Below the pieces are notes generated by a model that ran no database searches, had not been told where the DNA came from, and was given only the letters and a program-made list of their open reading frames with translations. The position numbers were made by a program, and so were the translations under genes. DNA of 64,000 nucleotides from positions 2,412,001-2,476,000 of the forward strand of contig NZ_JALQCS010000001.1 in NCBI RefSeq assembly GCF_023277115.1, read 5' to 3'. Positions 4,553-58,530 of this stretch are shown here, in pieces. Origin of the DNA: Acidithiobacillus acidisediminis. GTDB taxonomy: Bacteria > Pseudomonadota > Gammaproteobacteria > Acidithiobacillales > Acidithiobacillaceae. Positions within the stretch are counted from its first letter, which is position 1. Every line of letters begins with the position of its first letter.

Positions 4553-4919
4553 GGGGGCGACCGGCTTCGACGCAGGTCGCGAAGCCTTCGGTGCATGCAG
4601 AGCTGCGGTTTGCTCTTTAAACTGGTCGCAGATTCATAATTGCCAACGACAGCAATTACGCCCTCGCTGCGTAAGCAGTGAGCCCTCTGCCCGGGTTTGT
4701 CCATGGGTTCGGTGGCCGCAAGGCCTGCGGGGGGTCGACGAAACATGGAATCGCGCCGGATCTGGTCGGTGGATCCTGCGTTAAAATAAAGCCGAATCGC
4801 TGGGAGCGCATCCTGTTTGTCGGAGTCGCTCCGGGTTAAAACCCAATAGACAAACTACGCATGTAGATCCGGTGGTCTAGGTCTTGCGGACGCGGGTTCA
4901 ATTCCCGCCGCCTCCACCA
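4553..4919 (+). ncRNA. ssrA: Transfer-messenger RNA (tmRNA)
   Basis: tmRNA rescues stalled ribosomes and tags the product for proteolysis. The 5' end GGGGGCG pairs with CGCCTCC at the 3' end, followed by ACCA (encoded CCA at 4917-4919), forming the tRNA-like acceptor. The T-arm GGGTTCAATTCCC is present at the 3' end. The tag reading frame starts at GCC 4642 and reads ANDSNYALAA, then TAA at 4672-4674, a typical proteobacterial tag ending in the ClpXP/ClpAP degron ALAA. It is one-piece, not permuted. The 3' end is followed closely by a terminator and then by a decayed island; ssrA 3' ends are common integration sites. Confidence 0.97.
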
Positions 4920-4924
4920 CATAC

Positions 4925-4955
4925 AAGGGCTCGGATCATCTCCGGGCCCTTTTTC
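4925..4955 (+). terminator. Rho-independent terminator of ssrA
   Basis: AAGGGCTCGG pairs with CCGGGCCCTT (one G-T pair) around a 7-base loop, followed by a T-run (CCCTTTTTCTT). It begins 5 bases after the tmRNA CCA end. Confidence 0.85.
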
Positions 4956-57299: not shown

Positions 57300-58247
57300 T
57301 CAAGGCATAAGAGCTCTTTGCCTGGTCACAGCCCCACCCACTGGTACTATGCCAGGCTCCTCGCTTTCAAACATCCACTCCAGTACGGAACGCAACGGAG
57401 TGCTGGGACTATGGCCAATGCATCGCCGTAGCCGGTCGGCATTCCCCAGGAGTCGCGGGACTTCGTTGGCTCGGACGAAGGCCGGGTTCATTCGTACGTC
57501 CAAATGATGCCCCGTAATCTCCGTCGCCATCTCCAGTACCTCGCGCAAGGCATAAGCCCGGCCCGAGCAGATGTTCAAGGTCTGCCCTGTGGCATCAGAT
57601 GCCTGCAACAGATCGGCGTAGCAGGCCGCGACATCTCGTACATCCGAGAAATCCCGTGCTACGTCCAGATTCCCGAGCTCCACAGTCTCTGCCTTTCGGC
57701 GAAAGTGGGCGACGATCTTGGGGATGAGAAACTGGAGATCTTGCCCGACCCCCGTATAGTTGAAGGGCCGAACGATCACCAGCGGTAAGCGACGGAAGCT
57801 ACTGCGCAGCATCTGTTCCATCGCCCATTTGCTGCAGGCGTAATGATTGACCGGATTGGGACAGACGGACTCATCAATCAGCTCAACCTCAGGCGTGCCG
57901 TAGACATTGGCCGAACTCGCCACCACCACACGTTCGAGCTTGGGCAGGTCCTGCAACGCGGACATAAGGTTCAGGGTGCCGAAGAGATTGATATCATAGA
58001 ACGCACGCGGGTCGCCATGGCCCACAAAGGCTATCGCGGCCAAATGGATCACATAATTGGGCTGCAACTTTTGCACCACCCGCCGCAGACTTTCGGCATC
58101 CGTGAGATTCGCAACCCACTGCCCCGGGTCTACACCGGCAAGGGAGCAGAGCCCAACCACGCGGTAGCCACGTTGTTCCAAGACTTGCCGAAGGTAGCGC
58201 CCGGTAAAGCCGGTACTACCAGTTACCAATACTGTGGCAGATTCCAT
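57300..58247 (-). CDS. NAD-dependent epimerase/dehydratase (SDR)
   Basis: The 315-residue protein is an extended SDR nucleotide-sugar enzyme: GSTGFTGRYLRQVLEQRG (Rossmann loop), VVVASSANVYG with catalytic Ser, and NHYACSKWAMEQ with the YxxxK pair (Y-A-C-S-K). The sequence resembles GDP-mannose 4,6-dehydratases and RmD reductases, so a GDP-deoxysugar role is likely. I chose the ATG at 58247, which places GSTGFTG near residue 8; the frame opens 42 bp earlier. It directly precedes thiS. Confidence 0.85.
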   Translation of the reverse strand: MESATVLVTGSTGFTGRYLRQVLEQRGYRVVGLCSLAGVDPGQWVANLTDAESLRRVVQKLQPNYVIHLAAIAFVGHGDPRAFYDINLFGTLNLMSALQDLPKLERVVVASSANVYGTPEVELIDESVCPNPVNHYACSKWAMEQMLRSSFRRLPLVIVRPFNYTGVGQDLQFLIPKIVAHFRRKAETVELGNLDVARDFSDVRDVAACYADLLQASDATGQTLNICSGRAYALREVLEMATEITGHHLDVRMNPAFVRANEVPRLLGNADRLRRCIGHSPSTPLRSVLEWMFESEEPGIVPVGGAVTRQRALMP

Positions 58248-58303
58248 ATCATTACGCTTGGTGGGAATATTCCAATGCAAGTTTCGCAACTAAATGATTT
58301 TAT

Positions 58304-58377
58304 TGGAGGCTAGGCCCGGAATCGAACCGAGGTACACGGCTTTGCAGGCCGCTGCATAACCACTCTGCCACCCAGCC
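58304..58377 (-). tRNA. tRNA-Cys (GCA)
   Basis: On the minus strand, GGCTGGG pairs with CCTAGCC (one G-T), followed by U73 and encoded CCA. U73 is the Cys identity base. The anticodon loop CTGCAAA gives anticodon GCA. The T-arm is CGGTTCGATTCCG. It lies 36 bp downstream of tRNA-Gly with a terminator-like hairpin between. Confidence 0.95.
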
Positions 58378-58379
58378 AG

Positions 58380-58407
58380 AAAGAAAAAGGGAAAGAAGCC
58401 TTTCCCT
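58380..58407 (-). terminator. Terminator-like hairpin between tRNA-Gly and tRNA-Cys
   Basis: On the minus strand, AGGGAAAG pairs perfectly with CTTTCCCT around GCTT, followed by TTTTCTTTCT, a good intrinsic terminator. It lies wholly in the 36-bp spacer. tRNA-Cys downstream has no visible promoter of its own, so its transcription would depend on read-through. Confidence 0.75.
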
Positions 58408-58413
58408 GGTAGT

Positions 58414-58488
58414 TGGAGCGGGAAACGAGGCTCGAACTCGCGACCCCAACCTTGGCAAGGTTGTGCTCTACCACTGAGCTATTCCCGC
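58414..58488 (-). tRNA. tRNA-Gly (GCC)
   Basis: On the minus strand, GCGGGAA pairs with TTCCCGC, followed by U73 and encoded CCA. The anticodon loop TTGCCAA gives GCC, and the T-arm is GCGAG-TTCGAGC-CTCGT. The D-stem is GCTC/GAGC. Confidence 0.95.
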
Positions 58489-58500
58489 AACGTGTCGCGC

Positions 58501-58530
58501 ATCTTACGGCGTGCTTCCCCCTTCTGTCAA
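58501..58530 (-). promoter_or_regulatory. Promoter of the tRNA-Gly/tRNA-Cys unit
   Basis: On the minus strand, TTGACA (58530-58525) and TAAGAT (58506-58501) are spaced by 18 bp. The mature tRNA-Gly starts 13 bases beyond the -10. Confidence 0.7.

Follow-up and report, generated by a model that had tools for sequence, protein, structure and literature searches.

The window, a 64,000-nt stretch of the Acidithiobacillus acidisediminis genome analysed here, carries on its minus strand a two-gene tRNA unit in which one promoter precedes tRNA-Gly(GCC) and a hairpin with a T-run fills the 36-nt spacer ahead of tRNA-Cys(GCA) (Table 1). The stem has 8 bp including four G-C pairs, and the T-rich run follows directly 3' of the stem on the sense strand and continues up to the first base of tRNA-Cys. 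The Rfam matches for both tRNAs end 3 nt before the CCA ends. This layout had been described from the letters alone in a first-pass annotation, and the promoter, its 18-nt spacing, the stem and the T-run were all recovered by direct reading of the sequence. The tRNA-Cys gene was likewise found to lack a visible promoter of its own, with the best site within the pair matching 5/12 positions in a scan for sigma-70-like promoters.

Table 1. Features of the tRNA-Gly/tRNA-Cys locus in window coordinates.
Feature	Position	Strand	Remarks
Sigma-70-like promoter, TTGACA - 18 nt - TAAGAT	58501..58530	minus	10/12 matches; ends 12 nt before tRNA-Gly
tRNA-Gly(GCC)	58414..58488	minus	ARAGORN and Rfam; sole GCC gene found in genome
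Hairpin of terminator-like site, 8 bp: AGGGAAAG-GCTT-CTTTCCCT	58388..58407	minus	
T-run TTTTCTTTCT	58378..58387	minus	abuts tRNA-Cys
tRNA-Cys(GCA)	58304..58377	minus	ARAGORN and Rfam; sole Cys tRNA gene found in genome
Downstream ORF, NAD-dependent epimerase/dehydratase family	57300..58289	minus	

The hairpin was computed at -10.4 kcal/mol and the fold of the whole spacer at -11.0 kcal/mol, a value equalled by none of 200 dinucleotide shuffles (z = -3.1). For a 261-nt stretch around the spacer 48 of 200 shuffles folded equally well, though the best fold contains the hairpin, and the surrounding 2 kb held 3 terminator-like sites relative to 1.7 expected, so that the single site in the window is weak evidence by itself. 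Of the 13 terminator-like sites that lie at most 60 nt past a tRNA gene in the window's genome, the Gly-Cys site has the second-weakest hairpin and the fourth-best score. In the window one arm of the hairpin, GGGAAA, has a match in the 3' acceptor strand of tRNA-Gly. Pairing between the two was considered as a competing fold and rejected as disfavoured (-32.7 vs -40.2 kcal/mol), and with this alternative costing 7.5 kcal/mol in the folding model it is speculative that termination could depend on whether tRNA-Gly has folded.

The first-pass annotation had named conservation in relatives as a check on the hairpin, and within the order the hairpin proved to be retained almost throughout. A search of 31 genomes gave matches in 30, some of them partial, and 27 loci including the window had both tRNAs adjacent by ARAGORN and formed the readable pairs. 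Terminator-like sites were called by a strict test requiring a stem of at least 6 pairs, 3 G-C, with a loop of 3-10 and at least 5 T in 8 bases beginning 0-2 bases past the stem. Twenty-six of the 27 order spacers passed on the sense strand and one on the antisense strand, the exception (L018) having lost the core of the 5' arm, and it is this conservation that places the hairpin and T-run beyond chance. The stem core GGGAAA/TTTCCC was constant in 26 of 27 pairs and most of it is therefore uninformative on pairing. Among these 26 the outer pair was A-T (18), G-C (7) or G-T (1), and the inner one was G-C (25) or C-G (1). These end-pair changes include compensated ones by script counts on the stem core, the MAFFT alignment of the order spacers misregistering some stems. 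Loops varied in sequence and length, and the T-rich stretch reached or nearly reached the Cys gene from the stem in most order spacers, with the stem ending 9-12 nt before tRNA-Cys at 24 of 26 sites.

Recurrence beyond the order was assessed in a class search of 369 genomes with matches in 348. The class set of 148 pairs was made up of 29 loci (L031-L059) together with 119 of the 120 stretches fetched, L162 being without a readable Gly, and it represents the best-matching places rather than a random draw and includes the window and two further order members. Terminator-like sites were present on the sense strand in 67/148 Gly-Cys spacers and on the antisense strand in 8/148. The remaining 81 spacers failed the strict test, which misses some evident sites including that of L045 (loop >10). 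For all 176 pairs, a total that counts the window and a few relatives twice, 94 passed compared with 127 of 3520 shuffles. Many of the class stems had no sequence relation to one another, examples being AACCCTGG-TAAAGA-CCAGGGTT in L037, AAGCCGCG-AATCT-CGCGGCTT in L175 and AAAGCGAC-AAAAA-GTCGCTTT in L197.

Control spacers rarely contained such sites. Cys-Leu spacers of the class loci had a terminator-like site in 2/85 cases (two genomes counted twice), and among spacers of at least 30 nt the counts were 67/125 for Gly-Cys vs 2/42 for Cys-Leu (p = 4e-9; this and the p-values below ignore kinship among genomes and overstate significance). A Tyr-Gly(TCC)-Thr control cluster, searched for in 114 class genomes and represented by its 30 best-matching loci, gave 1/30 for Tyr-Gly(TCC) and 0/29 for Gly(TCC)-Thr, or 1/15 and 0/13 for spacers of at least 30 nt, the spacers in the control clusters being shorter than those of Gly-Cys. 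Four other kinds of tandem tRNA pair in the window's genome, with spacers of 3-19 nt, had no terminator-like site. A second sample of 28 loci from a phylum search included 24 with a Gly-Cys pair, two of which overlap the class set (L337 = L160 and L348 = L249). Here 9/24 Gly-Cys and 8/21 Cys-Leu spacers had a site, and with the site about as frequent in the Cys-Leu spacers this result was counted against the partial-terminator reading. The other pairs of this sample included Thr(TGT)-Tyr (1/1) and Gly-Gly (0/8), with six further kinds or fewer having none.

The first-pass annotation had offered both a read-through terminator and an RNA-processing hairpin, and the former is the better supported by the sense T-run (67 vs 8 of 148) and by the differing stems, while a pure processing role is less so. 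Under the latter, the hairpin would be a processing or stability element, cut by RNase III or RNase E or protecting the Gly precursor, with little termination and mature tRNA levels set later. The glyW-cysT spacer of E. coli, which fails the strict terminator test, has retained a stable hairpin that lacks a T-run, which shows that a hairpin can persist there by itself. By a provisional terminator score, 16/26 order sites fell below zero (median -9), the window site scoring +10, and low scores of this kind would suit processing. However, a processing hairpin needs no T-run, and the T-run is found on the sense side and in most order spacers spans the distance from stem to Cys gene or nearly so, making a processing element an unlikely explanation. 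Termination is the reading supported by the position, direction and recurrence of the site.

Promoters were distributed in the order as they were in the window. A sigma-70-type scan identified a promoter of at least 9/12 matches upstream of Gly in 27/27 readable order pairs, always with a perfect TTGACA, and none at this threshold from the start of Gly to the start of Cys in any of the 27, where the best site reached 7/12. A -10-like box between the stem and tRNA-Cys was absent from the window and occurred in 3/27 order pairs. Since no second sigma-70-like promoter was found, read-through would be needed to supply the sole Cys tRNA gene. A promoter would hardly fit between the stem and tRNA-Cys in the window's group, and because 9-12 nt leaves so little room tRNA-Cys would depend on read-through there, barring a promoter of another type.

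Elsewhere in the class the Gly-Cys junction can apparently separate two units, the second with a new promoter. Class sites with at least 25 nt past the stem had a -10-like box before tRNA-Cys in 12/30 cases vs 3.7 expected from shuffles, compared with 5/20 (3.4 in shuffles) for sites with 15-24 nt, 3/17 (2.7 in shuffles) for sites with fewer than 15 nt and 18/81 (18.7 in shuffles) for spacers without a terminator-like site. Four long Gly-Cys spacers (L190, L211, L214 and L256) have a terminator-like site and then TGCTATCAT shortly ahead of tRNA-Cys, which is probably a new promoter. A related arrangement was observed in seven loci of one family, f161 (L341, L342, L343, L345, L346, L348 and L349), where a terminator-like site lies also, or instead, in the Cys-Leu spacer. 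This family accounts for 7/8 of the Cys-Leu sites in the second sample, with spacers of 106-159 nt, and a TGTATATAGT box past the terminator-like site and before tRNA-Leu was seen in six of the seven spacers, the seventh being partly visible. These sites read as if new units with their own promoter start there, the unit being split. Both the long class spacers and the f161 loci demonstrate a layout that would also suit a full unit boundary in the window, at which Gly transcription would stop entirely and a separate promoter, of a type missed by the scan, would drive tRNA-Cys. The closeness of the stem to tRNA-Cys in the order, leaving a -10 box little space beyond the hairpin, and the lack of an inner site of at least 9/12 in the 27 pairs argue against such a boundary, which we regard as improbable.

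The site in the window is thus probably a partial intrinsic terminator within a two-gene tRNA unit that lowers tRNA-Cys output relative to tRNA-Gly. RNA polymerase would start before tRNA-Gly and transcribe it, most transcripts would end at the hairpin and U-run to give a short Gly precursor, and a minority would pass the hairpin and extend into tRNA-Cys. Termination, its leakiness and the purpose of providing more tRNA-Gly than tRNA-Cys are what we infer from the sequence of the locus and its relatives.

Gene dosage and codon use are consistent with a need for unequal output. The window's genome gave 47 tRNA matches, with Gly(GCC) and Cys(GCA) each occurring once by anticodon, a reading that lacks only Ala(CGC), known from the ARAGORN run on the window, and counts a repeated Ile-Ala pair once. 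ARAGORN also placed a tRNA-Leu(CAA) at 4866-4949 of the window, overlapping the 3' end of a tmRNA at 4553-4919. Rfam, with one match kept per clan, gives only the tmRNA and the genome-wide tRNA search had no match at the tRNA-Leu(CAA) position, so this tRNA is probably a false call. Forty-one window ORFs chosen by length contained 977 GGC and GGT codons, both decoded by tRNA-Gly(GCC), and 162 TGC and TGT codons. At this ratio of about 6:1, equal output of the two genes would yield about six times as much tRNA-Cys as codon use calls for, and read-through of about 1 in 6 would be expected given equal stability of the two tRNAs and amounts that follow codon use. From codon use it is plausible that read-through sets a useful Gly:Cys ratio.

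Comparisons of copy number and of predicted strength across the class lent this expectation no clear support. The site was present in 6/20 genomes with multiple Gly(GCC) copies vs 61/128 other genomes, a difference in the predicted direction that was not significant (p = 0.16). Copies were counted by a one-mismatch pattern with the multi-copy list set by hand. G178, G260 and G357 were treated as single-copy, the second hit in each differing by one mismatch and not being GCC, and the second hits in many of the others are putative. E. coli has further Gly(GCC) genes elsewhere in its genome. If a leak is needed, sites abutting tRNA-Cys would be expected to be weaker than sites followed by a long gap. 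Class sites abutting tRNA-Cys were not predicted to be weaker, the score being no different (p = 0.35). Their stems were the stronger by energy (median -17.4 vs -15.0 kcal/mol, p = 0.04), and the T-run measure was 2.6 vs 3.2 (p = 0.16). The site was rarer when Leu(UAA) follows the pair (26/82 vs 41/66 otherwise, p = 0.0003), an association confounded with spacer length and kinship and with Leu visible no further than about 200 nt away in the 119 stretches fetched.

Partial terminators within operons are known and the Gly-Cys site is a recurrent place for a known kind of device. In leaky intrinsic terminators of operons a termination site likewise lies between two genes of one promoter and the downstream gene is lowered, but the window differs in that both genes encode tRNAs, no translation is involved and the same junction is used in many bacterial lineages. 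Internal termination sites are reported for 38% of operons in a survey of the archaeon Methanococcus maripaludis (PMC10450193). The E. coli glyW-cysT-leuZ genes share the Gly(GCC)-Cys(GCA) order and are treated as one transcription unit by annotation and in PMC11480407, with a terminator after leuZ named in PMC6191717. They differ in the Gly-Cys hairpin lacking a T-run and in the Leu(UAA) gene that follows. The rRNA-tRNA composite operons of E. coli are similar in that a single operon yields structural RNAs in unequal amounts, with around half or more of the internal-promoter transcripts ending before the 23S gene in vitro, yet they rely on an internal promoter, and no clear intrinsic terminator is reported there (PMC5179076). 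Tandem terminators of E. coli rRNA operons with an intervening sRNA are reported also to give a structured RNA by read-through of the first terminator (PMC8144298). That first terminator ends the operon, while in the window the site is followed by the sole Cys tRNA gene identified in the genome. No description of a terminator between tRNA-Gly and tRNA-Cys was found in the open-licence literature by title and abstract start among the matches listed.

Gene copy number and promoter strength are the usual explanations for the agreement between tRNA amounts and codon use. A terminator maintained at a tRNA-tRNA junction would add another control on these amounts that is easy to measure, and would account for unequal output from a shared promoter where nearly all tRNA genes are single-copy, as in this genome. 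The many species in which this junction occurs either with or without a T-run offer a clean test. More tentatively, and with somewhat less confidence than would favour the idea, Gammaproteobacteria may have gained or kept a leaky terminator at the Gly(GCC)-Cys(GCA) junction while its sequences changed, as a standing valve on stoichiometry by which one promoter gives many Gly and few Cys tRNAs, tuned by termination and not by gene copies and perhaps even dependent on tRNA-Gly folding.

Behind tRNA-Cys the window ORF begins after 14 nt (TTG) or 56 nt (first ATG), and as the 250 nt behind tRNA-Cys showed no terminator-like site the ORF may receive read-through transcripts and be co-transcribed. 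The closest matches of another window protein, presumably thiazole-synthase-like, were from an Acidithiobacillus sp. MAG (97%) and Candidatus Igneacidithiobacillus taiwanensis (95%), placing the genome near Igneacidithiobacillus within the Acidithiobacillaceae. Twenty-two of the 26 order loci with sequence behind the last tRNA were likewise without a terminator-like site in 250 nt, the others being L011, L012, L022 and L023, and the sequence of L007 stops at its Cys gene. In most order loci the sole intrinsic-terminator-like site found is therefore the one after the first gene. Such an arrangement, with an ORF starting so close, could also mean that the hairpin guards the downstream gene, damping a strong tRNA promoter and sparing the epimerase-like gene from over-expression with the Gly:Cys ratio as a by-product. 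The sequence past tRNA-Cys differs by eye among most relatives viewed while the hairpin is retained, so the guarded gene would probably not be constant, and we consider a guard function highly improbable.

Three relatives (L005, L015 and L024) have AACAAAAACAACAA in common directly behind tRNA-Cys. L005 and L015, which are from different genera, remain alike for about 200 nt past AACAAAAACAACAA while L024 diverges, and the stretch shared by the two contains a frame that by eye resembles the start of a phage-type integrase. Mobile elements may use the tRNA-Cys gene as an insertion site.
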